Source: Candidatus Brocadia sp. (GTDB taxonomy: Bacteria; Planctomycetota; Brocadiia; Brocadiales; Brocadiaceae). Taken from it: a DNA stretch of 64,000 nt. The notes under the pieces were generated by a model. That model was given only the letters and a program-made list of their open reading frames with translations, had not been told where the DNA came from and searched no databases. A program made the translations under genes and the position numbers. This document shows positions 13,764 through 56,814 of this stretch, piece after piece. How positions within the stretch are numbered: the stretch's first letter is position 1; each line of letters begins with the position of its first letter. The DNA lies in assembly GCA_021646415.1 (NCBI GenBank), contig SOEU01000016.1:1-64000 (forward strand). The letters run 5' to 3'.

Positions 13764-16319
13764 TTAGTTCAATACAGACTCAAGACCTGCCCTGAATTGA
13801 TTTTCGTCTTCGTTGTTATAGAATGGTACACCAATCAAACGATATTTCTTGTCTCCAAACATCAGCGGTTTACCGCCAAACTTGGAAGTGATTTCTTTCA
13901 GGAAGGTCTCTTTCCATCGGTCATACTCTTTGAGGTGTCTCCCCTTTGGCTCGATGAAAAGCTGGTAGATAAGCAACTTGCCGGTTTTCTCGCGCAGGAA
14001 CAATACGAAATCTGGCTGAAAGGCTTGACCATCGGCAAAGTTGTAGATGGCAAAGTGCCCTTCATTACGCAGCAGATAGATTTGCTCGTATTGCTCTTGC
14101 AGTTTTTGCATCTGCCGATCCAGCATACGTACAAAGGCTTTTTCTTCGCATGTGCCGTAAATGGTGTTGAAGGCAAACCAATCTTTGGCAGAGACAAAAT
14201 GCTCAAACTGTGCGTCATCTGCGGCGCGGGGATTTTTCGCGTCAAATTTCAACACCTTGTCTTTGAACACTTCGCATACCCCACCACATCTGAACCCTCG
14301 CGTGCCTTCGTAATCAGTAACGTTGGCATGGATTTCGGCTTCGATTTGCGCCAGCAGGCCCTGCACAGCGGCGAGTTTTTCGGCACGGCTGTTATCCAAC
14401 CCGTACATATTGCACTGAAAGGTGATTTCTAATCCGGCAAGATGATCTTCACCAGTAATAAAGTCGCGCATGGAGGTAAGATGAGGAAAATAGCGTTTCA
14501 ACGATGCAAAGGTAAAGAATGGATTACGGGCAATGGCGGATTCAATAATGTTGCGCTCGATATCCCGCACCTTCACGTCCCGTCGGGTTTCGTCATTCAC
14601 GACAGCGCCCTTTTCCCCGCTTCCCAGCGCAGGGGTAGCACCGCCGCGACCTGTGGCGATAAGGTGGATGTAGTTTCGCTTCTTCACGCCCAAATCGGCA
14701 AAGAACTTGACGCGTTGGTAATCTTTTAGCTGGCGGTCATTGAGCCAAATAATCCCATACTTGTAAAATGGTGTTTTCTTGAACGATTCTTTCAGTCTCA
14801 GTTCGCGGGTCACTTCTCGTTCGTCCATCATGCCCTGCTCAATGAGCGCCTGTCGGATTTCAGCAATGTAGCGCGAGTCATTGATGCTGTGATAGCGCAA
14901 TTCTTCCAGCACGCACAGTTCGTGTTAAAGGTCGCTGTCGAATTTGCGGCGGAATCGGTTGCTACTTTGAGGAAGAACAAACGGGAAATAACGTGCCCCG
15001 CGCCCGATGAGTTGCGCTTCAGAGAGCATCGTTGCCCCGAGTTTGTTGTGGCCTGAATCACGTATCTCATAACAGCGAACAATGTCGAACAGGTTCAGCA
15101 CGTCCCACCCTTCGTTGAGTTTTTGCACGGCGAAGATGTCGCGGATGTGGTTGGCTTTATCTTCGAGGGTGTTGACAAGGATTTGATAATTCTCTTTTTC
15201 TTTCTCGTCATTCACAGAGAGACAAAAGTCTTGATGAAACTCCCGTTTCAGACGTTCCGCCAATTGCTCATCGCTGATGCCATTTTCGTCGAAGAAATGA
15301 AATGCCCGTTGCACCAGCGGGATGTTTGATTTACGGATGCGGGCGATGTCCTTTGCCGTAAGACCTCTGATGAGGGTGTGAAATTCGGCCTTAACCTGCC
15401 TGGATTGTTCGATGGTGCGCTGGGCTTTGAACAGGATGACGGGTTTGTGATTGATGCGGTATTTTGCCGCCACCACCTGCTTGTATTGATTCAGAAGCAG
15501 GGCTTGCAGGATGCGCTCGCGCTGGCCAAAATCCGATTGAATAATGACGATATCTTTCGAGTAGCAATCGTTGCGGAATTGGAGCAGGTCTTAGCGGATG
15601 ATGACCTTATTGCGGTATTTCTCCACCATCGCGGGCGTGGCGTAATCATGCGTGACCGTGAATTCCAGCAGCAGGTTGCCTTCACTCTGCGTAAAGATGC
15701 GCTCGACGGTGTTTTCCCAACTCTCAAACAGCACACCCTGCGCTCTGGTCTTGGCATTCATGTGATGCGCTTCATCTGCGATCAGCACGACCCTGTGCTT
15801 GCGGAAGTCTTCAAAGGTAATGGCGTTCTCTTTCTCGCTGGTTAGGCCGGAGTGCAGTTTTTGGATTGTAGTAAAGCAGATGTTGATGTCGCTGGGGTTG
15901 ACCGCTTCAAAGTTCTCAACAGGCGTGACACACACGCGGTGGCTAGCGATGTGAATGTCCTGATTGAACAGGTATTTGATGCTGGCGGGATTAAGAAAGT
16001 TATCTTTTGTCTTTTCGATGATGTTTGTTGAGTTGACAAAGAACAGGAAGTTGCGGTAACCCTGCTCGTAAAGGTAGAGAATCAGTCCTGCCATGATGAG
16101 CGTCTTGCCGCTACCCGTTGCCATGTTGAAGAGTAAGTGCAGGGGATATGCTTTGTTCGGAAAATCGTTATTATAGCAATGGAAAAAACGCGCAAAGGCT
16201 CCTATCTGATAGGGGCGCAGTTCATAGTGCTGGTTCAGATTTTGAGCGACACTGTCGGGAATTTTTTTCTCGATATTGCCTCATTGGGAAAGCGTGTCCA
16301 GTTGCTCGCAGAGAAATGA
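13764..16319 (-). pseudogene. Type III restriction enzyme Res subunit, broken by three nonsense codons
   Basis: Helicase-nuclease subunit of a type III restriction system. One reading frame runs the whole length, ~850 codons, and is interrupted only by in-frame stops: TGA at 16281-16283, TAA at 15591-15593 and TAA at 14925-14927. Coding similarity continues in the same frame across each stop, with no frameshift. In order: YELRPYQ, Walker A MATGSGKT (codon at about 16124), DEAH Walker B (LIADEAHHM), helicase C-domain motifs (ILVNTLEDKANH, LIGRGARYFPF) and a C-terminal PD-(D/E)xK nuclease (QPDFVLF ... FIEPKGRH). No start codon is evident next to the MNT gene, which ends at 16321. Restriction activity is presumably lost. 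Confidence 0.88.
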
Positions 16320-16320
16320 C

Positions 16321-16653
16321 TCAGACGTGGGATGTCTCCGTTGCTTTCTGATAGAACACAACCCCCACCCGCTGTATATGGTCAATCACATCAGGGTCGC
16401 TGATTTGCCGAAAGATGGACAGGTCGAAGGTATAGGGCAGGAGCAGGTCGTCTATCTCGTCCGTGATGCTGTAGAGAATATCAAGCGTCAAATCCTCCCC
16501 TCCGAATAGCGTCAGGTCAATATCAGAGCCGTTTTTGAAGTTACCTTTGGCGCGTGAGCCATAGAGGATCGCCTTTTCCACCTGAGGATAATGGGCAAAT
16601 ATGGCGCAAATGGCTTGTATGTCGCTTTCCTCAAGACCAAAGCGGTTTGTCAT
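16321..16653 (-). CDS. MNT-type nucleotidyltransferase, antitoxin of a HEPN/MNT pair
   Basis: A 110-residue minimal nucleotidyltransferase. The signature LYGSRAKG ... GSDIDL (about 35-52) gives the G-S motif and paired metal-binding aspartates. In characterised HEPN/MNT systems this partner modifies and silences the HEPN ribonuclease. Its ATG overlaps the HEPN stop (TAATG at 16653). Its end abuts the broken res gene, so the pair is transcribed inside the restriction operon. Unlike the flanking res and mod genes, it is intact. Confidence 0.85.
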   Translation of the reverse strand: MTNRFGLEESDIQAICAIFAHYPQVEKAILYGSRAKGNFKNGSDIDLTLFGGEDLTLDILYSITDEIDDLLLPYTFDLSIFRQISDPDVIDHIQRVGVVFYQKATETSHV

Positions 16654-17063
16654 TAGTTCTTCTCCATAAAATTTTGCAACCTGGTTCGGAACGCAACGAA
16701 TTCAGGATAATATTTATTGACAATAGCAGAGCAAACCTCTTCGGCAATGTTTTCATTATAAGTGTGAGTCGTTAAAGTTCTGCTCTTAATCATATCCATC
16801 CATGTTTTGCCGTTCTCAATCAGCCCTCGTCTGAATGCCAGACGAAAGGTATCACGACTGCCGTGTATGTCGGTTTCTCCCTGGGCTTCGAAGTAATCTT
16901 TAATAGTGTTCCAAGCTAATTCATAAGTATATTCAAACGCCTGAATCAGCCCCTGTTTTTCGAGCTCACTCAGATCGCCTTTCTCTATAAATTTTGTCAA
17001 TTGGTTTAGCGCCTTATCAAAATGGTTGTACCGCTGTATCCAGCGAATATCCTCTGCGCTCAT
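16653..17063 (-). CDS. HEPN-domain protein (HI0074 family), putative RNase toxin
   Basis: A 136-residue all-helical protein of the nucleotidyltransferase-substrate-binding (HI0074) family. The HEPN RNase signature R-x4-H is present as SRTLTTHTY near 103-111. It precedes MNT with a one-base overlap, the usual order in HEPN/MNT toxin-antitoxin pairs. Its ATG overlaps the stop codon of the upstream mod remnant (TGA at 17060-17062), so translation was coupled to the methyltransferase. The pair may stabilise the locus; function is inferred from family only. Confidence 0.85.
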   Translation of the reverse strand: MSAEDIRWIQRYNHFDKALNQLTKFIEKGDLSELEKQGLIQAFEYTYELAWNTIKDYFEAQGETDIHGSRDTFRLAFRRGLIENGKTWMDMIKSRTLTTHTYNENIAEEVCSAIVNKYYPEFVAFRTRLQNFMEKN

Positions 17064-17596: not shown

Positions 17597-17893
17597 AAAG
17601 GACACTAATTACTCCTATGGTTCGCAAACCCTTTGGCTGGGTTAAGCCGCATAACAAGATAATACGAAATTGTTTCTTCTTTAAAAAGGATAATAATACA
17701 AAAATAAAAAAGAATGCAAGTTTTTTTCATTTTTTTCCGGGGAAAGAACGGGGGCGAATCTTTCCAGGTTTTTTCCGAGAGGTGTATTTTAGCAAATTCA
17801 TGTGTCATAATTTGTACTAATTTTGTGCTAAAATCAATCCAAAAGAATAAAATTTGTTTGCTAAAGGCGCACTTACATATTAAATTAAAAGCC
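17597..17893. other. AT-rich gap between mod remnant and nadE stub
   Basis: No gene is supported. Apparent reading frames here are low-complexity AT-rich translations. It presumably holds the promoters of the diverging mod and nadE fragments and the deletion end that removed the 5' half of mod. Confidence 0.5.
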
Positions 17894-18046
17894 ATGAAAA
17901 TTGCACTGGCACAGATTAATCAAACAGTAGGTGACTTTCAAAGGAATACCGAAAAAATATGCTCGTACATCGATCGTGCCATGAGACAAAACGTCGATCT
18001 TGTCGTTTTTCCAGAATTGGCCGTTACGGGCTATCCTCCAAAGTAG
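17894..18046 (+). pseudogene. nadE: Truncated 5' fragment of glutamine-dependent NAD+ synthetase
   Basis: ATG at 17894 opens a frame of 50 residues with the nitrilase-domain start typical of NadE (KIALAQINQTVGDF ... VVFPELAVTGYPPK). It stops exactly where the left end of a Y1-transposase element begins (about 18049), and no NadE continuation appears after the element. The rest of the glutaminase domain and the whole synthetase domain are missing, so the product is not functional. A full copy is expected elsewhere. Confidence 0.85.
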
Positions 18047-18048: not shown

Positions 18049-18789
18049 TTCATGGGGTCAACATTCATGGGGATCAAACCTTCATATTTCAATTGACAAA
18101 CTGTACGTAGTGGTTAAAAATAAAGCACTATAGCAAGACCATTACGATTGGAATTTGAAGGTGCTTTTTATCATATCACATCAAGAGGCAATCTGAGAGT
18201 CAGAATATTCCTTGATGATAAAGATAGGGAAAAGTTTTTGGATATCTTACGAAGAACAAAGGAGAGATATGGATACCACCTCCATGCATATGCCCTGCCG
18301 GAAAATCACTATCACCTTTTTCTGGAAACACCAAAGGCAAATATCTCTCAAATCATGCAAAATATTAACACAAGTTATACGATTTATATAAACAAAAGGC
18401 ATAAAAGATCAGAGGATTATAGGTGGACAAGTTATAGGGAATATATCGGTGCTTATAAGGAAAAAGAATCAATAGTAGATACAGCAGAAACACTTTCCTA
18501 CTTTTCCAAGTCAAAAACTGCTGCAATGAAGGCATACGGAGATTTTGTAAAGGAAGGTACAGGAGAAAGAAACAATCCCCTGGAAGATGTGGAAGCTGGA
18601 GTTCTCCTCGGCAATAAAATATTCATAGCAAAGATAAGAGGTATGTCACAGAGGCGGAAACCTGACGAAGAAATTCCTCAGGTGAAACGCTAAAGCGAGT
18701 AGAAACCCGGATAAAAAGAGAGAGAAAATTCCAGAAAGAAATCGATGTGTTAAAAAACAATTAATTATTGAATAACGAAGGTCTGACCC
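18049..18789 (+). mobile_element. Decayed Y1 (IS200/RAYT-like) transposable element, copy 1
   Basis: The left end carries a tandem near-duplicate of ATTCATGGGGTCAA (18049-18063 and 18063-18077), followed by ATCAAACCTTC. The right end is GAAGGTCTGACCC (18777-18789), an imperfect inverted match to the left end. It carries an internally deleted transposase gene and cuts the nadE stub. A second copy with the same internal deletion lies at 55728-56631, so the deleted form may itself have been mobilised. Confidence 0.75.
18148..18693 (+). pseudogene. Y1 transposase with internal deletion
   Basis: A 181-residue frame matching REP-associated/IS200-like transposases. The opening GAFYHITSRGN and the HUH-type metal site ENHYHLF (near 51-57) are present. 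The sequence then jumps from INKRHKR directly to SEDYRWTSYREY. The intervening ~50 residues of the family, including the catalytic tyrosine region (usually YIHLNPVRA), are missing without a frameshift. The protein should be inactive. No intact start upstream (such as the usual MARPLRIE opening) was found. Confidence 0.8.
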
Positions 18790-18981: not shown

Positions 18982-20556
18982 TCACTTTATTATTATTGCA
19001 CAAGGTGTTTTGATTTTGCCCTTAACTATATCATCCCTTTTTATTGACAAAAGGTCTATCTCCTTTACAGGGCAGTCCATGCCTTCCAATGCTAATCTCG
19101 TGTTTGCTACATTATTGTCTTTATTTATAGTATCCACGCATATGATAGTAAACTCTAATCCTGCTGAAACGGCTGGTTGTAATTCTCTTATATGGTAAAA
19201 AAGTGAATTCTTATCCGTGATAAGAACTACGTTATTATCTGGATTACCAATCGCTGCACCTATCGCAAAAGGGAGTCCAGCCCCTGGTATGTCCCGGTCA
19301 TCCATGATAAAAAGATTTTTATAGATGGCCTTTCTAAAGAAACAAGATGCTGCAAGTGATAACTCTTTCCCATCAACGATAAAGATATCAGTGCCGGAAG
19401 AAATATTTTTAAGTGAAGCAAATATTTTCCCTGCATCGTCAAACCCTTTTGACAACTCTCCTGCTAATAGGTCGCAATTTTTATAGAAATCATCCCTCCA
19501 TGTACGGAAAGCGTTTTTATTCGTTTTCGCTTCTCGTTCAAAATAAGAGAAACTACTCTTGGGATCTGCATGTACGGGACAAAGGTTAGGAATGCTGTCT
19601 GCAAAAGCTGACGGATCAATTTCTATCTGGATAATACTCTTTAAATGCGAAGAATTTTTCATCTCAGAGAGAATACGTTCTGAATAAGGATCGATTCCTG
19701 CAATAATGAAAAGATCCGCCTTATTCAATAATTCAATTCCTAGCTTTGAATTCACGAATAACGAAGCATCTCCAGCATAACAATTATCATCACCACAAAA
19801 AACTCCGGAACTGTGCACTGTAGTTATAACAGGTATTCCCAGTTTATTTGCGGTCTCTTTCATCTCCTGATATCGCCCGGGACGTCCAAAACCCTGACCT
19901 AAAACAATAATAGGCCTTTCAGACTTTTGAATTGTCTCACAGGCTTCTTTCAGATAAAAGGAGTCTCCCACTATGTTACCTCTATACATCGTCCTCTCGG
20001 CAGGAGGCATTATACTCTGCCTTTTCTTTTTTGTAAGTACCTTGTATCTGAACAATACATCCACAGGGATATCAACATGTACCGGTCCTGGTATACCTTG
20101 CCACGCCTCCCTGAACGCCCTGTAAATCATTTGGGGTATTCTCTCCCAGGTGTAAACGATAGTATTCCATTTGGTAATAGGGAAAAATATTTCATCCTGA
20201 TTACAACCTTGTAAATTTTCCTGATGCGGTTTTATTTTCCAGCTTTGAAGCTGTGGGGCAATAGATAAAACAGGCAGATAATTGAACCACGCCTTTGACA
20301 GCCCTGAAACTTCATATATGACCCCAGCCCCGACCGTTGACATTGCTACGCTTGAGCATCCTGTAGAGGCAGTATAGCCGGATGCCATGAGAGCTGCGGC
20401 AGTTTCACAGCGTGGGACAATCAGCTTAATTTCCGGGAATTTTTCAAATGCATCATATACTGTGCCTATGTGTTCTCCGGATATAGAAAACACATACTTG
20501 ATTCCACATTGAACAAGTACATCTAAAAGCAATGCCCCCCCAGTGATTATTTTCAT
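18982..20556 (-). CDS. ThDP-enzyme-like protein lacking the cofactor-binding motif
   Basis: About 524 residues with the three-domain layout of acetolactate synthase/2-hydroxyacyl lyase enzymes. The N-terminal Pyr domain keeps the catalytic-type glutamate in RCETAAALMASGY. In the C-terminal PP domain, the position of the GDG-N motif that binds Mg2+-ThDP reads TDKNS where the upstream partner has GDGS, and the NN end is not clear. It probably cannot hold cofactor in its own PP domain. ATG at 20556 is preferred to GTG at 20571 because AGGTGGAGG lies just ahead. It starts two bases after the partner gene, so a heteromeric enzyme is plausible. Substrate unknown. Confidence 0.75.
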   Translation of the reverse strand: MKIITGGALLLDVLVQCGIKYVFSISGEHIGTVYDAFEKFPEIKLIVPRCETAAALMASGYTASTGCSSVAMSTVGAGVIYEVSGLSKAWFNYLPVLSIAPQLQSWKIKPHQENLQGCNQDEIFFPITKWNTIVYTWERIPQMIYRAFREAWQGIPGPVHVDIPVDVLFRYKVLTKKKRQSIMPPAERTMYRGNIVGDSFYLKEACETIQKSERPIIVLGQGFGRPGRYQEMKETANKLGIPVITTVHSSGVFCGDDNCYAGDASLFVNSKLGIELLNKADLFIIAGIDPYSERILSEMKNSSHLKSIIQIEIDPSAFADSIPNLCPVHADPKSSFSYFEREAKTNKNAFRTWRDDFYKNCDLLAGELSKGFDDAGKIFASLKNISSGTDIFIVDGKELSLAASCFFRKAIYKNLFIMDDRDIPGAGLPFAIGAAIGNPDNNVVLITDKNSLFYHIRELQPAVSAGLEFTIICVDTINKDNNVANTRLALEGMDCPVKEIDLLSIKRDDIVKGKIKTPCAIIIK

Positions 20557-20558
20557 TT

Positions 20559-22436
20559 TTAAGACCTCCACCTGGCCATTATGTTCACCCTCAATAAAGC
20601 TTTCCTGATATAGGTAAGATTAAAGAACACCTTGCTCCATCCTAATTTCATTATCAATAATGAACTCTTTAATACCTTAATCGGATTTAAAAGCTTCAAT
20701 AAACCATCAAACTCAATAAGAGAGAAACTCGACAGACAGTCCGGAAAATTGTTTTTGTCAGTTATAATATCAACGAGCGCAGCTCTGCCTTCACTTACCC
20801 CTTTTTCGTACGCGGGTAGTATGTCCTCGACCTTATCCACCCGTGTTGCAGGCAAGCCAAATCCCCGGGCTATTTTTGAGTAATCAATGTCAGGAAGCAT
20901 AGTGCCAACAAAATTTCCTGCAAACATGAAATACTGCATCGCCCTGATCATATTCCATGCAGAATCATTGGAGATTATTATCATAATAGGTAAGTTTAGC
21001 CTGCAAATGGTCTCGAGTTCCTGGATATGGTACAAAAATGACCCATCACCGCTTATCAGCATAACCCGTTTCCCCGGTGAGGCTAATTGAACCCCAATGG
21101 CATAAGGTATCCCACAACCAATTGCGGCCATGCCAAAAGGATAAAAAGATTGCCGGGGCCCCAGTGAAGGCGCATGCGTAGCAAAAAAAACTGGTGTGTT
21201 ACCTCCATCCAGTACCAAGACCAGATCATCCCTCTTTATGACTTTCCCCAGCTCTTGTATGACTTTTCCCTGTTGTATAACCGGCCACTTTTTATTGATA
21301 AATTTATTAAGTCTCTTGTACCGGCCCTCTTTCAGATGAGAAAGATACTTTGCCCATGACCTCCATGCAGGTTTTCCGCTAAAACCTTCAGAACGCAATT
21401 GCTCTGTTAATTGATTAAGAACAGTTTTAACATCCCCCAATATTGATATCTCGGGAGATACGTTCAGACCAATCTGAAGCGGATCTACATTGACATGAAT
21501 AAATTTAATCTTGTCAGACCATAAAGGAGGAAGACCAAATCCGTCTAATCCACAAAAGCTTACTCCCAGCGCCAGTACAATGTCAGCATCTTTGATAGCA
21601 ACATGAAAGGCCTCACCCGTTGTATAGGCCGGCCCGCCAAGGCAATACTCATGATCTGACGGTATAGAGCCGAAACCACCCATTGTTGTAGCAGCAGGAA
21701 TCTTAAACGCTTCAATAAAACGAATAACCTCTTCATAGGCCTCAGAGACTTTCACTCCTCCCCCGCAAAAGATGAGAGGTTTTTTTGCATTTTTAATACT
21801 CGATGCTGCTTTTTCAATTTTAAGTTTATCTCCGGCCAGCCTTATGGGTCTCATTTCGGTTGTAACAGATGAAGATGGCGGTGAGAATACGGTAGTATCA
21901 AAAGAGATTGTTTTCTCTAATAATCCGAAAGGTATGTCAATATGTACCGGACCTCTTTTATGCCTGGTACTTTCAAGTTTTCCCTTCTTTATAGTGTCTG
22001 GAATGCTCAAAAGTGTATTGATCCGTTTCCTCCAAATGGTAATCTCATGATACACTGTATTTTGGTCAAATCTGTATCTGTTGAACCCTTTATTGTAATC
22101 AACTTCATCATCATTGCAAATTGACAAAGAAAGCAAAGGGGTCTTATCAGCCCAGGAATTTGCAACTCCGTAAATCTGCGATAATGATCTGCCATTGTCA
22201 TCAGTTAATACAACGGCAAACTTCCCGGAACGCCTAATGTAACCATCTGCCATTAAGGCCGCTGCCCCTTCAGTTCTCGCAATAATTACGTTTATACTCG
22301 CCTTCTTTTCTAAACACGCTCTGAGAGGGCCAAGTCTGTCTGAAGATGTAGTAAAAACATAATTGATTCCATTGGCAGCAAGACTTCTCGCGATGAGTTC
22401 GTTACCTGAAAGATCTTCCACGTTTAAATCTCCCAA
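20559..22436 (-). CDS. ThDP-dependent acetolactate synthase / 2-hydroxyacyl lyase-like enzyme
   Basis: A 625-residue ThDP enzyme. Catalytic glutamate E56 lies in ARTEGAAALMADGY; the Rossmann-like middle domain contains IFCGGGVK (222-229); the cofactor motif GDGS is at 463-466 with its asparagine at 490 (SNDSAW). Residues beyond about 570 form an extra basic, hydrophobic tail (LLKLLNPIKVLKSSL..) absent from IlvB, perhaps a membrane-contacting segment. It starts 27 bases after the alpha-dioxygenase gene and is nearly fused to the following ThDP-like gene. It is too diverged from IlvB to be called acetolactate synthase; the family also includes 2-hydroxyacyl-CoA lyase and oxalyl-CoA decarboxylase. 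Confidence 0.8.
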   Translation of the reverse strand: MGDLNVEDLSGNELIARSLAANGINYVFTTSSDRLGPLRACLEKKASINVIIARTEGAAALMADGYIRRSGKFAVVLTDDNGRSLSQIYGVANSWADKTPLLSLSICNDDEVDYNKGFNRYRFDQNTVYHEITIWRKRINTLLSIPDTIKKGKLESTRHKRGPVHIDIPFGLLEKTISFDTTVFSPPSSSVTTEMRPIRLAGDKLKIEKAASSIKNAKKPLIFCGGGVKVSEAYEEVIRFIEAFKIPAATTMGGFGSIPSDHEYCLGGPAYTTGEAFHVAIKDADIVLALGVSFCGLDGFGLPPLWSDKIKFIHVNVDPLQIGLNVSPEISILGDVKTVLNQLTEQLRSEGFSGKPAWRSWAKYLSHLKEGRYKRLNKFINKKWPVIQQGKVIQELGKVIKRDDLVLVLDGGNTPVFFATHAPSLGPRQSFYPFGMAAIGCGIPYAIGVQLASPGKRVMLISGDGSFLYHIQELETICRLNLPIMIIISNDSAWNMIRAMQYFMFAGNFVGTMLPDIDYSKIARGFGLPATRVDKVEDILPAYEKGVSEGRAALVDIITDKNNFPDCLSSFSLIEFDGLLKLLNPIKVLKSSLLIMKLGWSKVFFNLTYIRKALLRVNIMARWRS

Positions 22437-22463: not shown

Positions 22464-24899
22464 CTAATCCTTTAAAAAGTCTCCTCTTATCTGATATTCC
22501 AGGGCAAAATCAGATCTTTCCCGATCCCATAAATCGAAGGGATTTTTAACATTACGTAATGCTGGCCGAAGTTTTGGAAACTGCCGTCTGATGACATCCA
22601 CCATATTAGTGGTATTCACATAATCGAATCCCCACCGGGTATAAAATTCTGGCCGATAATGTTCGGTAAAAAAACGATCGCTAAACAACCTTCGGGAAGC
22701 GTTTAAAATAAAAACCTGAAACTGAGTTTCACTGATCACGAAGCCATGCGGCCGTGAGAACTCGGCGAGGAGACCAACCAGAAGATCTACTTTTTCAATG
22801 TCGCTGTCATAAACCTTGCGCATTTCTTCCACCAGCCGTTGCTGACGTTTCAGTTCTGCTTGTTTTGCCTGAAGTTCGTCAGCGGTAAGACTGGGATCTT
22901 TACGGAAATCACGCGATCTCTTGTTTTCAATTTCCCACACAAGCTCTTTGTCGATAAAATCGGTAAAATCCTTCAAAGGTTTCAGTTGCAGTTGCCGGCG
23001 AAATTCATTGAAGCGCGGGACCCCACGCTCTCTATCCCGAATAATGTCCATTGCAGCAAGGTCAATTTTACCTCCGGGTGCCTGGGGTACTGTAAGTTCA
23101 GTCATAAAACGGGGAAAATTTTCGAGGGTGAGTTGCCCACAGCCGGTAAGGCCAAAAGACAATGCGATGCTATCGATCCCGATTCCCCGTATAAAATGTT
23201 TCGAACCCTCCCTGACGGTATCGACGATGGCGATTTGGTCCTGAACGGTTTTTATACCAGGCACCTTACTTTCTAACTCTCTGCCGCTAAATTGTCGCAC
23301 TTCACCTTGGGAAAGTACGTCAGCATCATAAATTGCTAAATAATCTGGTATAGTGGGATGGAGCCGATAGACAGAAGTAAATTCCTCCGTTAAGGTGAAT
23401 GGGACACCAAAATGTTCAGCTCTGGGCATCCCCATGATTCCAGTGCCCGTAACCGCAAGGCTGACCAACTCATCTTTGCGAAGATTTTGTAATGTAGCGG
23501 TGAAGTTGTTGATAGCTTTCTTAGAGCCTTCCATGGCTATGCGCATGATTTCCTCTTTAAATAAGGAATCCCCTTGAGTGCTACGCAACAAGCCTTGCCA
23601 ATTGGTATGCATAGCCATGTCCCCCAGCCGATTATAAAGAAGTTGTGGTGTCCATTCAATGGTATGAATTTTGGCCAGTAATGCGGAGACGATTAGTCTG
23701 GCGGTATCATAGAGTTCCTCATCACTCCATGCTGCAGCCCCACTCGGGGGGGCAGCGTTTTGCCTCAATTGATCAACGATATAGTTGTGCTCTTTAGAAA
23801 ACATAGTGTGCATCAAACTAAGGCCTATCCACCAGTTATCTGCAAAAGCTGATATTTCCTGGTCAAGGAAGCCTTTGGGGGGATGGAGTCCAACTTCACT
23901 GTAAGTGGGGAGCACACCAGTTTCCGACACTTTTAATTTGGCTTTGTCTTTGGGATCGATCACTCTTTGTTGCGTTTCCTGGTCCCAACCGTAAAGTTGC
24001 GAGGCATCCCACCAGAAGGTCACCGTATTTTTCCATGTTTCCACTGGAATGTTTTTAAAGCCAGCCAAATCTTTTTGGTCGTCGTGGGGAGTTCGTGCCA
24101 CCTCCCAACCACCCTCTTGACCGACTTTCGGTAAGTTTTGCAATTTGCTTTCAGAAACGGAAAAGGTATTGCTATTATCGTTCCACCCATCACGGGTATG
24201 AGAAAACCAATCATGGGTCATAAATTGGATCCAGGCAGAGGCCCAAAGATTAAAAAATGGAGCTGCATGATGGTTAAAGGGGTCTTTTCTCACTAAAAGT
24301 CGTTCGCTGATAACGCGGGGATTAGGTTCACCCGCTTCCTGCGAAGAAGCCACTTTGCGATGGAAATCAATGATAGATATATTAGCGGTCTCAATGGTTA
24401 CATTCCGCCCGAATCGTTGACCTACGGAGCCCATCAATGGGTTGTCAAAATCGTTACAGCGTCCATCGAGGGCTCGTGCGCGGTAGACGGGATTTTTCAT
24501 ACTCCTTTCCCCGCAAGATGAACCATCCCGCATCGCCTTCCAGACAACCCGCCGTTCGTCTCCTGTTTGCTGGCCCCGGTCACCCCATGCGCCATTGGTA
24601 TCGTGCATATTCTTGGCCACAAGATTTATACGGAACTTTTCTAGCTCACCTAATGCGGCAGCAATACCAATAGCTTGTGTTAATTGATGTGCGGCGGTAT
24701 CATAACGTGTTCCCGTAAACCATTGCCAAAGTACCCAGGGGCGACCCTGATTGCGTTTCACTCTGGGATTCAACCAGGCTGCGATATCTTCTACCTCAGA
24801 TTTTGCTTCACTTACTCCGGTCTCTGGTTTTTTGCATCCAACAAAAGCAGACAAAAATATACTTGAGATTAATACTATGCGGATCATATCATTCTCCAC
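22464..24899 (-). CDS. Fatty-acid alpha-dioxygenase-like haem protein (lipoprotein)
   Basis: An 811-residue member of the animal haem peroxidase/cyclooxygenase superfamily, closest in motif pattern to plant pathogen-inducible alpha-dioxygenases, which insert O2 at the alpha carbon of fatty acids. Seen in order: a signal peptide with lipobox-like FVGC (C22); distal haem motif QFMTHDW (H229); WWDASQLYG (297-304); SKEHN (368-372); AKIHTIEWT (409-417); and YRLH (511-514), matching the catalytic tyrosine and proximal histidine pair of the family. It is longer than the plant enzymes (about 640). It sits 27 bases before two ThDP enzymes and 142 bases after a GMC oxidoreductase. Activity and substrate are inferred from family only. 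Confidence 0.83.
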   Translation of the reverse strand: MENDMIRIVLISSIFLSAFVGCKKPETGVSEAKSEVEDIAAWLNPRVKRNQGRPWVLWQWFTGTRYDTAAHQLTQAIGIAAALGELEKFRINLVAKNMHDTNGAWGDRGQQTGDERRVVWKAMRDGSSCGERSMKNPVYRARALDGRCNDFDNPLMGSVGQRFGRNVTIETANISIIDFHRKVASSQEAGEPNPRVISERLLVRKDPFNHHAAPFFNLWASAWIQFMTHDWFSHTRDGWNDNSNTFSVSESKLQNLPKVGQEGGWEVARTPHDDQKDLAGFKNIPVETWKNTVTFWWDASQLYGWDQETQQRVIDPKDKAKLKVSETGVLPTYSEVGLHPPKGFLDQEISAFADNWWIGLSLMHTMFSKEHNYIVDQLRQNAAPPSGAAAWSDEELYDTARLIVSALLAKIHTIEWTPQLLYNRLGDMAMHTNWQGLLRSTQGDSLFKEEIMRIAMEGSKKAINNFTATLQNLRKDELVSLAVTGTGIMGMPRAEHFGVPFTLTEEFTSVYRLHPTIPDYLAIYDADVLSQGEVRQFSGRELESKVPGIKTVQDQIAIVDTVREGSKHFIRGIGIDSIALSFGLTGCGQLTLENFPRFMTELTVPQAPGGKIDLAAMDIIRDRERGVPRFNEFRRQLQLKPLKDFTDFIDKELVWEIENKRSRDFRKDPSLTADELQAKQAELKRQQRLVEEMRKVYDSDIEKVDLLVGLLAEFSRPHGFVISETQFQVFILNASRRLFSDRFFTEHYRPEFYTRWGFDYVNTTNMVDVIRRQFPKLRPALRNVKNPFDLWDRERSDFALEYQIRGDFLKD

Positions 24900-25041: not shown

Positions 25042-27408
25042 TCATCCATGAGTTTGTTGACTGGGCAAGAGATGTTTCACATATGTTTCATATAATTCAC
25101 CAAAGAAAAAGGACATAAATTTGTTTTTAGTACTGAGTGCTGTCTTGAAATTGGGCGCATTACGAACCCTAATAGTGGCTAACTGTTCGGTAATATCATG
25201 TAAATGTATACGAATAATTCCTTGCCCTAATACAGGGTCTTGAGTGGTATTCCCTTTGTAAATCGTAGCGAAAAGGGTTGTATAATCTTTCCATATTTCC
25301 CAGGTATCAAAATCAGGGTCATCCCGAATCTCTTTATAGCCGTCTAGCAAGTAAGGTTGGCCATCGTCATCGAGGAATTGTAATGAAAAGAGCATACGTT
25401 TTGTATGTATTTGCGGGTCTTTGATGAACAAGTTAAACCGCCCTTGTTCAACCATTTGCTTCATGCTTCTTATCTTTATATGGCCTTCTGCACGAGCATC
25501 ATGTGCGTGTTCAATCACAAATTTATCGACACTGTCTATGTACACTGTTAGTTTAAAGCCGATATTGTTCCCTTCCTGTTTTCCACGAGTTTCAGCTTTA
25601 CAGTAATCTTCAGGTGTTTTTGCATTTGTCACACTCTCCGTAAAATAGCCATTCATCTCTGTGGTAAATTCAATTCCTACAAGAGGTGAAATAACCGACG
25701 GAGGGGGGAGACCGCCTTCCCTTGGTTTCTTATTTATGATGGTATCCTGAACGATCAGGTCAGCGATTCGTTCAGATAAAGCGGAGATAGTAAAAAACGG
25801 ATTCACTCCTAACGAGGTTGGAATTATTGAACCATCAGCAACAAACAGTCCATTATGAACTGAGCCTAATGTATCTTGTGCCGGATCAAAGACCCTCCCG
25901 CGATGATCAACAACGCCTATATCAGCACTTTTGCCCATAGCACAACCCCCCAGCGGATGAACCGTAATTATATTCCTGCCAAAGAACGGCGTCCACCTGG
26001 GATTCCTGATGTAAGTCCCTCCCAGTGCTTTCGTTAGTTGTTTCATTTCATCATCAATCTTTTGAAAAATTGGTTTGGACGGTGCTGCTGCCCAGTGAAT
26101 GCGTATCTTCCCTTCAGGGTCAACAGCAATAACGCCATCTGCGCTGTCGTGCCCTATTCCCAGATATAACATGGAATGGTTCAGGGCACCTTTTGCATCA
26201 TAATGTGCAATATCTCTCACCACCCGTGCGGCTTCTGAAGCCTCATCAATGACACTGAAATCGGTGTCATGGCCGACAGCCGCACTGATCTTTGGCATAG
26301 CGTACCGGGTAAAGTCTACGAATGCCCGAGGAAAATCACCCTCTTCTATGATGTAACGGTCTTTCAGATCCAGTTCTTTCCTGCGATAATCGATAACAGA
26401 GAGGATCAAAGGACCGACTTGAATCTTCGAACGTTTGTCTCGAATATTGCCAAAACCGAGCACATCGGTTTTCTGGTCATTATTATAACCAACCCCAAAT
26501 GAGTCTGCATTTCCGGAAAAATAATGCCCAAGCTTATCAGAAACGGCAAGACCACGATCGCGGGAATTCAACAGTATATGCGTAGATCCCAAGGCACCGG
26601 CAGCTATAATGACGACATTTGCATGAATAAACCTGGATTTTTTGTCCTCCGAATGGGAGGTACAATGCACAAAATAACCACCACCATCGGCTTTACTAAT
26701 GTAGTTGACTTCCATTTCCGTTATAATGAATGCGCCCTGACTTTTCGCAAAAGGAAGATAATTCATGTATAATGTATTCTTAGCCAGGACGTTACAGCCG
26801 GTCATGCAGTCGCCACATAAAATGCAAGGTCTTTGATGTACACCAACATGATTGGGTTCATCATTATATTTTTCAAAATTAACTGCCAGATTCAGTTTAT
26901 AGTATTTACCGGGACGGTCTTTGGCTGATTTTTCATGCGCTTTTATTTTCCCCACAGATGGACGGTTGTCCGGATAGACAGCGCCCTGTAACATGTCATT
27001 TACTTTTTCAAAATATTTATTGAGTTTGCCATTATCCTGGTCTTCACGAATCTCGTCAGGCCATCTGGTGTTGTTAAAAACGTCGTCTTCCGGTTTAAAG
27101 ATGACGTTCGCATTAATTAAAGATGTCCCACCAAGACCACAGCCCACAAAAACATCAACGTCCTCAGTTACACGATAGTCATATAATCCTAATGGATTGC
27201 TATCTGAACGAAACTGTGCAGTTACTTCATCGATTTCATCAGGAAACTCGCCCGGTATCCACTCTTTACCTCTTTCGAGAAGACAGACCTCATATCCTGC
27301 TGCTGCCAATCTTGCCGCAGTTATTGAGCCACCATAACCTGAACCAATGACTATAATTCCATAACGATCTTTCAGTTCTGTTATTGAATTAGATAACTTT
27401 GTGCTCAT
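25042..27408 (-). CDS. GMC-family (cholesterol-oxidase-type) flavin oxidoreductase
   Basis: A 788-residue FAD enzyme. The N-terminal dinucleotide motif GSGYGG is at 22-27 and a second FAD loop, GLGGTSLINA, at 91-100. A four-cysteine cluster (C195, C198, C201, C205) may bind metal or an Fe-S centre. The HPLGGCAMG motif (484-492) and C-terminal NPFFT (536-540) are typical of cholesterol-oxidase-type GMC proteins. Residues about 570-788 form the extra C-terminal domain common in bacterial homologues. No signal peptide. It likely oxidises an alcohol or hydroxylated lipid. Being on the same strand and just upstream of the alpha-dioxygenase, it could act on that product. Confidence 0.82.
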   Translation of the reverse strand: MSTKLSNSITELKDRYGIIVIGSGYGGSITAARLAAAGYEVCLLERGKEWIPGEFPDEIDEVTAQFRSDSNPLGLYDYRVTEDVDVFVGCGLGGTSLINANVIFKPEDDVFNNTRWPDEIREDQDNGKLNKYFEKVNDMLQGAVYPDNRPSVGKIKAHEKSAKDRPGKYYKLNLAVNFEKYNDEPNHVGVHQRPCILCGDCMTGCNVLAKNTLYMNYLPFAKSQGAFIITEMEVNYISKADGGGYFVHCTSHSEDKKSRFIHANVVIIAAGALGSTHILLNSRDRGLAVSDKLGHYFSGNADSFGVGYNNDQKTDVLGFGNIRDKRSKIQVGPLILSVIDYRRKELDLKDRYIIEEGDFPRAFVDFTRYAMPKISAAVGHDTDFSVIDEASEAARVVRDIAHYDAKGALNHSMLYLGIGHDSADGVIAVDPEGKIRIHWAAAPSKPIFQKIDDEMKQLTKALGGTYIRNPRWTPFFGRNIITVHPLGGCAMGKSADIGVVDHRGRVFDPAQDTLGSVHNGLFVADGSIIPTSLGVNPFFTISALSERIADLIVQDTIINKKPREGGLPPPSVISPLVGIEFTTEMNGYFTESVTNAKTPEDYCKAETRGKQEGNNIGFKLTVYIDSVDKFVIEHAHDARAEGHIKIRSMKQMVEQGRFNLFIKDPQIHTKRMLFSLQFLDDDGQPYLLDGYKEIRDDPDFDTWEIWKDYTTLFATIYKGNTTQDPVLGQGIIRIHLHDITEQLATIRVRNAPNFKTALSTKNKFMSFFFGELYETYVKHLLPSQQTHG

Positions 27409-27664: not shown

Positions 27665-29791
27665 CTAGGGGATATTTGCATGTGAGAATTCAGTAATCTG
27701 CCCCTCCTTGTTTATGACTACCCGTCTGTAATATGGCGGTTGATTGCCTAGCCTTCGTATTCCACAGGATGCAGTTTGGACGATTACAGGACTCTGCCCC
27801 CACCATGCATACGGCTTGTCATGGTTAAAATTTTCGCTGTACCTGTCGTGATATATCCTGATCTCATGATTTTTATCTTTCTCTATCCTAAATTCAATAT
27901 TCCGGTGGGCGTGTCCTGAAAAAACAATGTCTATTAACTTAAACTTACGATCCGCGTCCTGTTTTACCAGATCTCCCTCTCTGTATCCCATGCAGAGATA
28001 AAAGAACTCGCTCAGATAATAATTAATCGTTCCGTATGTCAGATTACATTCCTCTTCAGGAACCCACCTTGGTCCTGCCTTTCTTTCAACTTCCCGCAGG
28101 GTATCCATATCAACATGCTCGGGTGAGTTGATGGGAGGGGCGTGGAAAAAGATGAAATTTCTACCATGAGCATCTGGCTTCTTACTCACAGCTTTCATGA
28201 CTTTCTCTAACCATACTATTTGGCTCCAATTATAATAAACCTGTTCTGGATCAAACGCCTTTGAATCGGGAGATCCTCCCAGGATATTATCCTTTACACC
28301 TATTTTCTTGAGGTATTTAATCTCTTTCTTATCCAAAATTTGCCCAATGAAAATATCAGATCCTGTATCCATAATTATAAAGCAATGGTTTCCATAGTAA
28401 AAGGCATAGTCAAGGTATGGGTTTATATATCTGAAATAATAATGAAGTGCGCAAGCTTCAGCATGGAGGGGATTGTCTATAATGAAGTCAGCTATTTTAC
28501 GCGTCTGATATCTTATAAATTTATTAATCCCCCATGTTGCTATTCCTGCAATTCCGGCAATTATAAAATGAGAAACGTAATTTGCTATTGGATTTACCTT
28601 TTCTCCTATACCTATCAATCCTAAAAGCGGCAAAATATGCATGAGCCAGGTTCCTATAATACTGCCAAGAAACTTTTCCAACTGTATTTTCCATTTATCG
28701 GTTTTTTTCAGGGCGTCAAGGTTAAGTCTATTTAAGGCACCGCTCGTTATCTCTTCCGCCAATTTTGCCCTCTTATCCTCTGGGTATTCTGAAGAATCAA
28801 AGGATTTGTATCTATAGTGTTTAAGCTCATCTTCCATTAAGCCGAAAGTGTCTCGGTTGTACTTTGAAATGTTTGGATCGTAAGGGCGAAGACGCCAATC
28901 ATGATTCCCGGTTGATGTAAAAACCGCTATTTTTATACCGGGATTATTCCGTTCCTTTTCCTTTCCTGCACCAGTAATTATATTAACGAAGGTTTTCCAA
29001 TTGTTTTCATCTAAATTTATTTCGTCTTCCCAACCATGAAAGGCAAAATCTACTAAATCTCCTGTAATTACAACAAAGTCAAGTTCACCCTCCTCAGCCA
29101 TACTGTTTGCTTTCTGGATAAACTTTCTCAGGTTATGGTTGAAGTTAATGTATCTCTTTGCGATGTCGTCTCCACTTCTCTTCTCATACTTTACTTTCAA
29201 GACTTCATCGAGGATCTCGTCATTCCGCGTGGCAACATGAAGATCGGTGACCTGAATGAATTTGCAGCCATCACCAAAGCTTTTAACAAATTGTACAGAA
29301 TGGTAGTTAACCCTCTCCCACTTTTCTGATTGGTCTCTGTATACCAAATCGTAAAGACACGGAGGGCATTTTCCTCCCTTTTGAGATAAAAGAAGAGTTT
29401 CATAATCTTCTGTACTTTTACAATCGATACTGACCGCGATTTTCCAATACCGGGTATTCTCACCCATTACATTGTAATGGAACTCACTAGGAATAATCTC
29501 TCTCGTATCGTCTACACTATTGAAATCCGATAGTTGATACCAATGAATAATCTCCTCAGGTTCATCGCTAATAGATAGTGGAATATCTTTTTTATCTTCA
29601 TTTCCTTTATGAGAAGGCCGTAAATATAAAGTTCCCGTGAAATCATCCTTTATGGGAACCTTGTTTCCCCTGTATTGTCCGGCTATTATTAACGAAAACA
29701 CCTTCTCTTGCTTAAACTCCTCAGTAGAAATAATCTGCGGGCAACCGAGGTTAGGACTTATTATCAATGGAAAATCATCTCTTTTTGTCAA
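27665..29791 (-). CDS. Metallophosphoesterase with a membrane segment
   Basis: A 708-residue calcineurin-like phosphoesterase. Metal-site motifs are in order: TDLH (182-185), TGDLVD (243-248), TGNHDW (294-299) and a C-terminal GHAHRN. Two hydrophobic stretches (LMHILPLLGLIGIG and FIIAGIAGIATWGI) in the insert between GNHD and GHAH could anchor it in a membrane. The N-terminal 170 residues are a beta-rich domain I do not recognise. It is upstream of the GMC-dioxygenase-ThDP genes on the same strand, separated by a MITE-like repeat, so membership of that operon is uncertain. Substrate unknown. Confidence 0.8.
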   Translation of the reverse strand: MTKRDDFPLIISPNLGCPQIISTEEFKQEKVFSLIIAGQYRGNKVPIKDDFTGTLYLRPSHKGNEDKKDIPLSISDEPEEIIHWYQLSDFNSVDDTREIIPSEFHYNVMGENTRYWKIAVSIDCKSTEDYETLLLSQKGGKCPPCLYDLVYRDQSEKWERVNYHSVQFVKSFGDGCKFIQVTDLHVATRNDEILDEVLKVKYEKRSGDDIAKRYINFNHNLRKFIQKANSMAEEGELDFVVITGDLVDFAFHGWEDEINLDENNWKTFVNIITGAGKEKERNNPGIKIAVFTSTGNHDWRLRPYDPNISKYNRDTFGLMEDELKHYRYKSFDSSEYPEDKRAKLAEEITSGALNRLNLDALKKTDKWKIQLEKFLGSIIGTWLMHILPLLGLIGIGEKVNPIANYVSHFIIAGIAGIATWGINKFIRYQTRKIADFIIDNPLHAEACALHYYFRYINPYLDYAFYYGNHCFIIMDTGSDIFIGQILDKKEIKYLKKIGVKDNILGGSPDSKAFDPEQVYYNWSQIVWLEKVMKAVSKKPDAHGRNFIFFHAPPINSPEHVDMDTLREVERKAGPRWVPEEECNLTYGTINYYLSEFFYLCMGYREGDLVKQDADRKFKLIDIVFSGHAHRNIEFRIEKDKNHEIRIYHDRYSENFNHDKPYAWWGQSPVIVQTASCGIRRLGNQPPYYRRVVINKEGQITEFSHANIP

Positions 29792-46792: not shown

Positions 46793-48067
46793 TTACCTGG
46801 CAATAACCTTCATTCCCCCCATATATGGCTGAAGGACATCCGGGATTATAATGGACCCATCCTTTCGCTGATAGGTTTCGAGAATTGCGATAACTGTTCT
46901 TGGCAGGGCTAATCCGGAGCCGTTTAAGGTATGTACAAATCGTAATTTACCATCCTCGTCCCGGAAACGAATATTAATACGCCTTGCCTGAAAATCTTCA
47001 AAATTGCTGCAGGATGAAACCTCAAGGAATTTGTCCAATCCCGGTGCCCAAACTTCAATGTCATAACACTTAGCCGCTGCAAAGCTCATATCTCCCGTAG
47101 ATAATTTTGCCACCCGGTATTCAAGTCCCAGGAGCTGAAGTATCTTTTCCGCATTAATCAGTAATGACTCCAGTTCATTGTAAGAAGTTTCTGGCCTTAC
47201 CAGTTTCACTAATTCTACTTTATTGAATTGATGTACCCGAATAATACCCCTCGTATCCTTACCATAAGAACCAGCCTCGCGCCGAAAGCAAGGAGTGTAG
47301 GCAGTGTAGTAGATGGGGAGGTCTTTGAAAGAGAGTATCTCATCACGATGGATGTTGGTAACCGGAACTTCCGCCGTTGGAACGAGAAAGAGGTCATCTA
47401 CGGCAGTTCGATACATATCCTCTTCCAGCTTGGGTAATTGGCCTGTGCCGGTCATAGACGTGCGGTTAACGAGAAACGGAGGAAACAATTCAGTATAGCC
47501 ATGTTCTCGGGTATGGGTGTCCAGCATGAAACAAAATAAGGCACGCTCAAGTTTTGCACCGGGTCCTTTTAGAAGGATAAAACCCGAACCGGAGATTTTT
47601 GAAGAACGTTCCAGATCCAGGATATTCAAAATCCGTCCCAATTCCCAGTGTGGTAAAGGTGCAAAATCAAACGTTTTCCGCTGTCCCCATGTCCTGACGA
47701 TGACGTTATCATTGGCATCCCTCCCAATGGGTACGTCCGCTGCTGGGATGTTTGGGATACGAAGGAGCAGATTGATGATTTTGGGTTCCAGTTCCTTCAG
47801 TATTTCCTCAATGGATTTTATTTCATCGCCGATCTTTTTTGTTTCTTCGATAATATTAGAGGCGTCTTGACCTCTTTTTTTCAGTTCGCTGACCTCTCTT
47901 GATTTTTCGTTACGTTTACCCTTCAATTGTTCGCAGGTATGGATTAGAGACCTGCGTTGCGTATCCAGTTCTAAAATTTGGTCTATGCTGGCTGCATTTT
48001 CATGTTTATGGGCAATGGCCTGCTTTATTTTGTCAGGATTATTCCTGATAAAATTTATGTCGAGCAT
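46793..48067 (-). CDS. serS: Seryl-tRNA synthetase
   Basis: Class II synthetase, 424 residues. The N-terminal coiled-coil arm (about 30-100) binds tRNA-Ser. Motif 2 is recognisable as [14 protein letters not shown] and motif 3 as [20 protein letters not shown] and [17 protein letters not shown] are also in place. It converges on the ispF-membrane-protein unit. No T-box or other leader was recognised upstream. Confidence 0.96.
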
Positions 48068-48628
48068 ATATTCAAAAAATCTCCGTTTACTATGATAGAT
48101 AACAGTTTTCTGGGGTCATGGAACTGTAGCCATGTAACAAGGTCTATGTCGTTTTACCATATCTCCGAAACTTGTTATCTCACAGAACTTATGAATCACT
48201 CATAATTCTTGTAATTAATAGGTGCTGAATTATATGGAATTATTCCGCTTATTTCAATAACTTTATAAATGTTAACGATATACGGATAATCATATTTTTC
48301 TATGTCGTATTTATGACGTACATTAATTCTGTGCTACGAAGGAGATGATTTTGTTTAGCGTTATTCCCTTGTGTTTACTCATTTATTCCATGTTTATATA
48401 ATTTTATATGCAACTTCTGTGTATTTCAGCAAACAAAAGATCATTGTTGAATGATAAGTAGTTGCCACAGGCGCTTCATCTGAAAGTTATTGAGGACATC
48501 TCCTGTAATTTTTTCATTGAAGAAAAGGAAAAAAAAGAATTGAATTATGGTGGTTTTTTGATGTTTCCTTCAGACAAAAACACAATTATGTATTATTTCA
48601 TCCAACATCTTTGTAGGAGGATTTGAAG
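48068..48628. other. Long divergent intergenic region between serS and the TPR gene
   Basis: AT-rich, with no gene or RNA recognised. It must contain the promoters of two diverging genes. The ribosome-binding site AGGAGG (48615-48620) at its end belongs to the TPR gene. Confidence 0.55.
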
Positions 48629-51352: not shown

Positions 51353-52028
51353 TACTGCGAAAATAACAGAACAGTTTACGATTCAAAGCAAAAAGTTAAA
51401 TATTCTTATAACCATTTAAATGTTTGAAAAAGTAACACGTCCCTAAAGAATCAAATGCTGCTAAATCTTTGTTCAAACGGTATAGTATAGCTGTTTGCTC
51501 TTTCCCTTCTCGTGTTTCAATTGATTGTTGCCTGATTTTAGAAGCAAGGCGCTGACCACTAGCCCGCATTTCTCACGGAGGGTTATTTGTGATATCAAAA
51601 GGTTTCAAAATGCGAATGCGGTTGCTTTACAAGACGGACTCTTTCAGCTTTTATGCATCAAAATTGAATATATTGAAGATTTTATTGATAAAAACACCGG
51701 GACATGCCACCAAAAGGCGTATTTTGGGTGCAGTGTAGCGCCCCCTGTCCTGATTCATGAAACGGCTTAATTTTGCCATGTGATTTATTCTCCTCTGTTT
51801 CGTCACTCGAAATCATGAGAGTTCTTTACCATAAAATAAATTGCAATCCCATGAGTTTTTGCTTTAATATCCTTCACGTAAAAAAAACAATTATTTTTGC
51901 ATATATTATCTTTCAAAGATACTTTGGCCTTTTTAGAAAAATATGAATAAAGTCAACCCTGACAGGGTTAACTCACAAATTTCGTGCTTCGGATTTATTT
52001 TTTCGACTCGTTCGGGTTAGGAATTACC
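51353..52028. other. Intergenic region with repeat, upstream of glmM
   Basis: No convincing gene. A frame of 81 codons (51525-51770) lacks a ribosome-binding site and a family match and may be a decayed fragment. The right end is the ~68-bp dispersed repeat. Confidence 0.45.
51955..52021. repeat. ~68-bp dispersed repeat, copy 2, at the glmM start
   Basis: Palindrome AACCCTGACAGGGTT (51955-51969) followed by the stretch shared with 36166-36219. Its last bases TTAGG lie seven bases before the glmM ATG and serve as, or overlap, the ribosome-binding site. Confidence 0.8.
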
Positions 52029-55727: not shown

Positions 55728-56631
55728 ATTCATGGGTCAAACAATTCATGGGTCAAACCTTCATTTTTCAATTGACAAACTTTACGTAAAAGAAAAGTTT
55801 TTGGATATCTTAAGAAGAACATAGGAGAGATATGGATACCTCCTCCATGCATATGCCCAAAAGGCATAAAAGATCAGAGGATTATAGGTGAACAAGTAGG
55901 TTGGGTTGAGGAACGAAACCCAACAACCTAATATGGCAAGAAAATAATGCAATATCGCAGATCACAAGCGCAAGGCGCAACGTTCTTCTTTACCGTAATA
56001 GCATACAATAGAAAGAGGTATTATGTCACAAGGCAAATGTAGCGCCGATAAAAGAGGCTTTCCAGTATATTATCAAGCAACACCCCTTTAGAATTCAGGC
56101 TTTTGTCCTACTTTCTGATCATATCCATTGTATTTGGACATTACCAGAAAACGACAATGCTTTCTCAATGCATGGCGATTTATCAAGAGTTATTTCAGCA
56201 GACGATGCAAGAGTGCGTACAAATATTTTATGAAAATGTGGCATGAATAATCGCAGTTGTTGGGTTTTCGCTTTGCTCAACCCAACCTACACAACTTATA
56301 AGGAAAAAGAATCAATCGTAGATACAGCAGAAACACCTTCCTACTTTTCCAGGACAAAAACTGCTGCAATGAAGGCATACGGAGATTTTGTAAAGGAAGG
56401 TACAGGAGAAAGAAACAATCCCCTGGAAGATGTGGAAGCTGGAGTTCACCTCGGCAGTACAATATTCATAGCAAAGACAAGAGGTATGTTGCAAAGACGG
56501 AAACCCGATGAAGAGATTCCTCAGGTGAAACGCTAAAGCGAGTAGAAGCCAGGATAAAAAGAGAGAGATAATTCCAGAAAGAAATCGAAGTTAAAAAGGC
56601 AATTAATAATTAAATAACGAAGGGCTGACCC
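55728..56631 (+). mobile_element. Decayed Y1 transposable element, copy 2, with nested insertion
   Basis: It starts with the same tandem ATTCATGGGTCAA pair as copy 1 and ends with GAAGGGCTGACCC (56619-56631). The transposase sequence carries the same AAAGGCATAAAAGATCAGAGGATTATAGG junction as copy 1, where the catalytic part has been deleted, and also lacks most of the N-terminal coding part. It is interrupted at about 55898 by a second element. The distal part (56290-56536) is almost identical to copy 1. Confidence 0.75.
55898..56290 (+). mobile_element. REP-flanked RAYT element remnant, nested in copy 2
   Basis: The unit is bounded by two hairpins of the same sequence: GTTGGGTT..AACCCAAC at 55900-55907/55917-55924 and at 56259-56266/56279-56286. 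Between them the plus strand encodes, across two frameshifts, a different REP-associated tyrosine transposase: QAQGATFFFTVIAYN, then the HUH motif SDHIHCIW and LPENDNAFS, then WRFIKSYFSRRCKSAYK. The catalytic frame is broken, so it is not autonomous. This is the structure of a REP/RAYT unit. Confidence 0.75.
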
Positions 56632-56650
56632 TTGGCTTTGCTTGGCTTTT

Positions 56651-56806
56651 GCGCTCTTCGAGAGCCTTGCGCGTGTAGTCGAAGCCCTTGTGAGTGTTCA
56701 GATCCATTCAACGAAACGTCTGGGTCGGATAGATCGGTGTAGTCGCGCTGTTTAATGTCGAGTCCTTGTCGACCCCGAAGTGAACGCATTTAGTCTCGAG
56801 TCGCAT
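56651..56806 (-). pseudogene. 5' remnant of a Cys/Met-metabolism PLP enzyme
   Basis: ATG at 56806, eight bases after the preceding gene's end, opens RLETKCVHFGV .. TTPIYPTQTFR, the N-terminus of cystathionine gamma-synthase / methionine gamma-lyase-type enzymes. A TGA follows directly, then the frame continues with HKGFDYTRKALEER, which lacks the conserved GNPT after YTR. Sequence identity ends near 56650, at the edge of the AT-rich repeat nest. The gene is GC-rich like the adjoining glycosidase gene, so it belonged to that segment. Confidence 0.75.
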
Positions 56807-56814
56807 GAACCCTT

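Follow-up and report, generated by a model that had tools for sequence, protein, structure and literature searches.

α-Dioxygenases (α-DOXs) were long seen as plant enzymes, and those of cyanobacteria were proven only lately (Kim et al.); bacterial α-DOX is already known. The plant enzymes, of about 620–640 residues, include those of rice (OsaDOX, 4kvj/4kvl) and Arabidopsis (4hhr/4hhs); among the cyanobacterial ones are CalDOX and LepDOX (PMC8720084). Free fatty acids are likewise oxygenated by envelope haem enzymes in P. aeruginosa, whose oleate-diol synthase (PA2077/PA2078) is periplasmic, of the RoxA-like kind, and makes oxylipins, although it belongs to the di-haem cytochrome c family and attacks another position of the chain (PMC5155153, PMC4496055). 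Among the top literature matches, none dealt with an α-DOX that is periplasmic or a lipoprotein, or with one in nitrifiers or anammox bacteria; nor did the literature searched join α-dioxygenase with Planctomycetes, or describe an exported α-DOX clade or a mobile block with a ThDP pair. Here we analyse a predicted exported α-DOX gene, AOX, in the first 64,000 nucleotides of contig SOEU01000016.1 (the window) of a Candidatus Brocadia genome.

The host, presumed in an earlier note on this DNA to be an anaerobe, is an anaerobic anammox bacterium (Ca. Brocadia, with 91% identity to the nearest named MAG). Growth of Ca. Brocadia takes place in the absence of O2, which counts against an O2-dependent role for AOX. 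The open reading frame at 22464–24899, described in that note as having α-dioxygenase and lipobox features, does have them; it is coded on the minus strand, the plus strand there being full of stops. Because a Shine–Dalgarno sequence, GGAGA, precedes an ATG at 24887, whereas the listed GTG at 24899 lies further upstream, the ATG is probably the real start, giving a gene at 22464..24887 (minus strand) and a product of 807 residues; true residue numbers are therefore 4 below those counted from the GTG (H225, Y507, H510 and Cys18). The sole Pfam domain of the protein is PF03098 (281 bits, E 2e-83), for which one gene was found in this genome, and NCBIfam has no model for it. Its best PDB relatives are the rice and Arabidopsis α-DOXs (E about 1e-79); a peroxidase comes next, at 1e-11.

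Rice α-DOX positions (PMC8720084) were mapped onto AOX once the PDB chain had been found to be offset by +3. The three residues singled out for alignment in the earlier note match exactly: His225 (H229 in GTG numbering; 24213..24215, this and the following codons on the minus strand) is the distal haem histidine, rice H157; Tyr507 (Y511; 23367..23369) is the catalytic tyrosine, rice Y379 and CalDOX Y358; and His510 (H514; 23358..23360) is the proximal haem histidine, rice H382 and CalDOX H361. The residues that bind the fatty-acid carboxylate align too, His408 (H412; 23664..23666) with rice H311 and CalDOX H290, and Arg733 (R737; 22689..22691) with rice R559 and CalDOX R529. In GTG numbering, W416, T417 and F507 equal rice W315, T316 and F375, while F727, F730, I731 and A734 equal rice F549, F552, I553 and A556; Y511 is flanked by the Phe pair F507 and F730 (rice Y379, Phe375/Phe552), H412 and R737 are joined by T417 in the carboxylate-binding set (rice His311/Arg559, Thr316), and both sets are invariant in the homologues. 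At the channel positions aligned with rice there are two differences only, G426 for M325 and T432 for A331 (GTG numbering). Further towards the N-terminus, where α-DOXs have membrane-binding helices, the rice channel residues L53/R57 (CalDOX V18/R22) pair with AOX L86/R90 (GTG numbering), nearly invariant positions in a part of the AOX model that is unreliable (pLDDT about 30–40). Residues D230, T294, W296, D298 and S300 (GTG numbering) match D158, T210, W212, D214 and S216 of rice, which we take to be its Ca2+-site positions. AOX has in common with the plant enzymes the fold, the haem ligands, the tyrosine, the carboxylate His/Arg and the Ca2+ residues. Against the cyanobacterial enzymes (PMC8720084) it shows 34% identity over 720 residues, with all catalytic and most channel residues in common (13 of 16 of those of CalDOX); in ATG numbering, the channel has L82, G422 and T428 where CalDOX has V18, T304 and A310. 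The Calothrix pCAL6303.01 ‘peroxidase family protein’ carries 12 of 12 checked residues at the positions published for the characterised CalDOX, and the key α-DOX residues, both haem histidines included, do not vary among the 83 bacterial homologues compared.

A maximum-likelihood tree separates α-DOXs (plants, the CalDOX group, an exported group and Brocadia) from planctomycete animal-type peroxidases with support of 100/100. Brocadia AOX is the sister branch of the exported bacterial clade (98/99) and CalDOX lies in another clade, the order among α-DOX clades being less sure because of long branches. The exported proteins, labelled ‘peroxidase family proteins’ (Nitrosomonas, Nitrospira, Nitrobacter, Alteromonas, Acidobacteria and others), have the active site and signal type of AOX; they differ from it in their length (900–1000 residues), in their gene neighbours, in a Cys-containing N-terminal motif that is absent in Brocadia AOX, and in sequence at large, with 33–38% identity. 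Nitrobacter, Nitrospira and Nitrosomonas, where exported α-DOXs occur (L018, L033, L054, L055, L056, L066), commonly live alongside anammox bacteria in reactors. An AlphaFold model of AOX, built from 49 sequences and of moderate quality (mean pLDDT 61, pTM 0.70), finds α-DOX structures first (E 1e-28), with other haem peroxidases and COX at 4e-15 or weaker. Residues, PDB relatives, tree and fold all uphold the assignment to the α-DOX family in place of ordinary peroxidases; an ordinary or animal-type haem peroxidase (MPO/LPO/peroxidockerin-like) was rejected on residues, tree and fold. A split animal-type peroxidase gene in another Brocadia genome (G014, L119:6986-8352) is different from α-DOX.

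The N-terminus of AOX, MIRIVLISSIFLSAFVGC, has an n/h region and a lipobox cysteine: residues 1–17, MIRIVLISSIFLSAFVG (24837..24887, minus strand), form a predicted lipoprotein signal peptide ahead of Cys18 (codon 24834..24836, minus strand), and the Phe at −3 is allowed by the PROSITE-type pattern, though it is not the commonest residue there. The lipobox-like signal proposed in the earlier note is conserved in all five Brocadiaceae copies. By a simple rule (a PROSITE-like lipobox, a hydrophobic segment), a lipobox was recognised in 34 of the 83 homologues and a Sec-like signal in 37; among the 12 without a signal, four (L028, L049, L063, L086) are cut off at the N-terminus and most others form a Pseudomonas/Thalassolituus group nearer CalDOX, which itself lacks an export signal (N-terminus MFGIPWHKLP...). 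With signals in 71 of 83 homologues, export is a trait of the clade; a membrane anchor special to the anaerobe finds no support. The cleavable signal, along with internal insertions, a total of 807 residues and a place in an operon-like block of a bacterial genome, sets AOX apart from the plant enzymes. A surplus of about 170 residues, which the earlier note had put in an N-terminal extension, is correct as a total and wrong as to its place: over rice, the N-terminal surplus is only about 30 residues (signal plus linker). Some +56 residues precede residue 141, ~30 of them ahead of the first channel helix, and further surplus of about +15, +29, +31 and +46 falls in four internal stretches, with about +15 at the C-terminus. 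A special N-terminal domain was rejected, since most of the surplus lies inside the protein and the channel residues near the N-terminus have their counterparts in AOX.

On the minus strand AOX is third in a block of five genes. Ahead of it lie a metallophosphoesterase (27665..29791, 708 aa) and a GMC oxidoreductase (25042..27408) that resembles cholesterol oxidase, ends in a domain of about 230 aa and shows no signal peptide; after a gap of 27 nt follow two overlapping ThDP-fold genes, TPPa (20559..22436; GTG 22421 is a possible better start) and TPPb (18982..20571). TPPa keeps the GDG...ND cofactor motif, which TPPb has lost (ITDKN), and TPPb is likely, on its sequence, a non-catalytic partner subunit of TPPa. 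TPPa matches 2-hydroxyacyl-CoA lyase and oxalyl-CoA decarboxylase (HACL/OXC) at E about 1e-41, but better scores come from glyoxylate carboligase, BbmA and acetolactate synthase; it reaches no NCBIfam cut-off, and a search of plasmids gave generic ThDP matches only, below 30%. TPPb was found in five genomes only among 392 planctomycete genomes searched, all of its order. None of the five block genes has a PADLOC match, which leaves the suggested role in defence, taken as anti-phage defence, without support; we reject it for the block.

The block's distal edge has an IS200-like Y1 transposase (18148..18693, plus strand) adjoining a truncated carbon–nitrogen hydrolase (17714–18046), the start of an NAD synthetase-like domain, and DNA at about 17600–18800 matches many scattered short stretches across Brocadia genomes. 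Also adjoining the block is a nucleotidyltransferase (Polbeta) and NTase_sub_bind/HepT-like pair (16321–17063) that resembles MNT-HEPN toxin–antitoxin systems, and a Type III restriction enzyme (ResIII) gene at 13764–16124 looks broken, its remnants spread over several minus-strand reading frames. Elsewhere in the window, GC bumps to 0.48–0.49 across a 909-aa TPR-repeat protein (48000–52000), and from 56500 to 64000 it rises from about 0.38–0.45 to 0.56–0.64, either a foreign island or an assembly chimera or contamination; this GC-rich end holds a glycoside phosphorylase (SOGP/GH94-like, 59787–63227) that is single-copy in this genome.

The distribution across anammox genomes, a check proposed in the earlier note, is patchy: AOX occurs in 4 of the 33 genomes of its family examined and is absent from the other 29. 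Every family genome with AOX also carries the GMC-oxidoreductase/AOX/TPPa–TPPb block, in the full order in G017 and G023, whereas the block of G035 lacks the metallophosphoesterase that three Brocadia genomes have in it; a genome of a related family (G001) has TPPa–TPPb alone, without AOX. The flanks of the block are different in every genome. The adjoining trkA–trkH pair is conserved in the genus, but each genome examined has different DNA after TrkH, so that none of them offers a clean empty site; a search for direct repeats bounding the block gave none. Between the window and G017 or G023, synonymous divergence of the block genes is 0.20–0.34, as against 0.41–0.74 (G017) and 1.05–1.20 (G023) for TrkH, TrkA and SerS, mostly 2–5 times below the core genes. 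Together with the changing flanks, this low divergence indicates exchange among Brocadia lineages, or recombination, after their split, and agrees with the horizontal origin that the earlier note had raised; the block appears to have been recently transferred among anammox bacteria. The closest non-anammox relatives of AOX are only 33–38% identical, so that no donor can be named. Values of dN/dS of 0.07–0.21 over all five block genes point to purifying selection on each of them, including TPPb (about 0.18) despite its lost ThDP/Mg motif, and led us to reject AOX or the block as a pseudogene or decaying.

The neighbourhoods of α-DOX genes in other bacteria vary. In Proteobacteria, an exported α-DOX is often followed by a catalase-like gene, whose protein weakly matches coral allene oxide synthase (E 2e-4), a small protein, the C3 family and DyP-like genes, or is accompanied by RoxA-like cytochromes with two CXXCH motifs (Alteromonas, rhizobia). 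A lipoxygenase adjoins α-DOX in Sulfitobacter; a GMC oxidoreductase and a two-haem lipoprotein lie near it in Nitrosomonas, a GMC oxidoreductase and a patatin in Calothrix, and a patatin and a ThDP enzyme in Rhizobium jaguaris and Phyllobacterium, while on a Streptomyces plasmid its neighbours are a ThDP enzyme, an FAD oxidase, a P450 and a hydrolase. The rhizobial and Streptomyces ThDP enzymes are no more than distant relatives of TPPa, and no TPPa relative was found near other exported-clade α-DOX loci. In a related planctomycete (G002), a metallophosphoesterase–GMC pair adjoins members of the catalase-like and DyP-like families that accompany exported α-DOX in Proteobacteria. A planctomycete locus without α-DOX (L122:173-10008) has an oxidative gene set made up of a metallophosphoesterase, a GMC oxidoreductase, a catalase-like fusion protein and a DyP-like peroxidase. 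By gene proximity alone, and chance adjacency aside, the neighbours seem to point to lipid oxidation.

The active site of AOX is identical with that of proven enzymes, from which we infer the α-dioxygenase reaction. On its sequence, AOX probably carries out O2-dependent lipid chemistry at the cell envelope when O2 leaks in. The lipid anchor would tether the protein to the outer face of a membrane, where, on arrival of O2, it would take a free fatty acid whose carboxylate is held by His408/Arg733; the peroxide-activated haem would make a Tyr507 radical, which would remove the α-hydrogen for O2 to add, and the 2-hydroperoxy acid would break down, releasing CO2 and a fatty aldehyde shortened by one carbon (or giving a 2-hydroxy acid). 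The adjacent TPPa/TPPb pair might use the aldehyde in a carboligation or lyase step, the GMC oxidoreductase might oxidise an alcohol and perhaps supply activating H2O2, and the whole block might serve as an envelope-lipid oxidation module for microoxic episodes. As the ThDP and GMC proteins show no signal peptide and AOX is exported, a direct hand-over would need the product to cross a membrane. Anammox bacteria do encounter O2, both in reactors and along O2 gradients, and they possess systems that reduce it (PMC10156729; PMC13253579). Freshwater species reduce O2 slowly and are inhibited at a few µM (PMC10156729), so that AOX would act only episodically.

This same physiology could be read as favouring an α-DOX whose benefit is the removal of O2 itself, with membrane fatty acids as a local sink and the aldehyde as a by-product: the O2-dependent active site is placed at the envelope, and O2 scavenging helps Scalindua to survive (PMC13253579). 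Spending lipid carbon one O2 at a time would make a poor sink, however, and such a benefit fits badly with an enzyme held by 4 of 33 family genomes, with relatives that bear the same export signal and come mostly from oxygen-using lineages, and with neighbours that are lipid-modifying enzymes, not known detoxification genes; we think it distinctly unlikely. Still less probable, in our judgement, is a secreted haem peroxidase that uses H2O2 against oxidative stress or other microbes and is no fatty-acid oxygenase. AOX does share its Pfam family with animal peroxidases, has distal and proximal histidines and Ca2+ residues, and adjoins a GMC oxidoreductase that could give H2O2. Its carboxylate His/Arg, tyrosine and channel residues are nevertheless all kept and invariant, it goes with α-DOXs in both tree and fold, peroxidase activity is described as decreased in plant α-DOXs (PMC4420034), and the anti-phage library gave no matches.

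AOX could also merely supply aldehyde, drawn from envelope fatty acids, to a cytoplasmic pathway in which the ThDP pair and the GMC oxidoreductase make a lipid of acyloin or diketone type that would act as a signal or surfactant triggered by O2. A ThDP enzyme stands next to α-DOX in three unrelated lineages, G001 keeps the TPPa–TPPb pair without AOX, and TPPa resembles carboligases and acetolactate synthase; the ThDP superfamily is nonetheless large and varied, and we regard this account as unlikely. A bolder version, which we would call improbable on the sequences at hand, is that the mobile module as a whole makes an O2-dependent acyloin- or diketone-type lipid via AOX, the ThDP pair and the GMC oxidoreductase, from membrane-derived, possibly ladderane, fatty acids, and that the compound reports or answers O2 exposure. 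If true, this would amount to a new oxylipin-like pathway in bacteria, with odd or shortened-chain ladderanes as its fingerprint. We favour, with moderate confidence, AOX as a haem fatty-acid α-dioxygenase of the exported clade that would perform O2-conditional α-oxidation at the envelope, perhaps as part of an optional, horizontally spread module.

An obligately O2-using lipid enzyme in bacteria inhibited by micromolar O2 raises the question of what role it plays there and why it has spread. The exported clade also reaches Nitrospirota, Gemmatimonadota, Campylobacterota and the anammox Planctomycetota, which suggests that periplasmic fatty-acid oxygenation is widespread and mostly unstudied, and in partial-nitritation/anammox reactors AOX could leave lipid markers.
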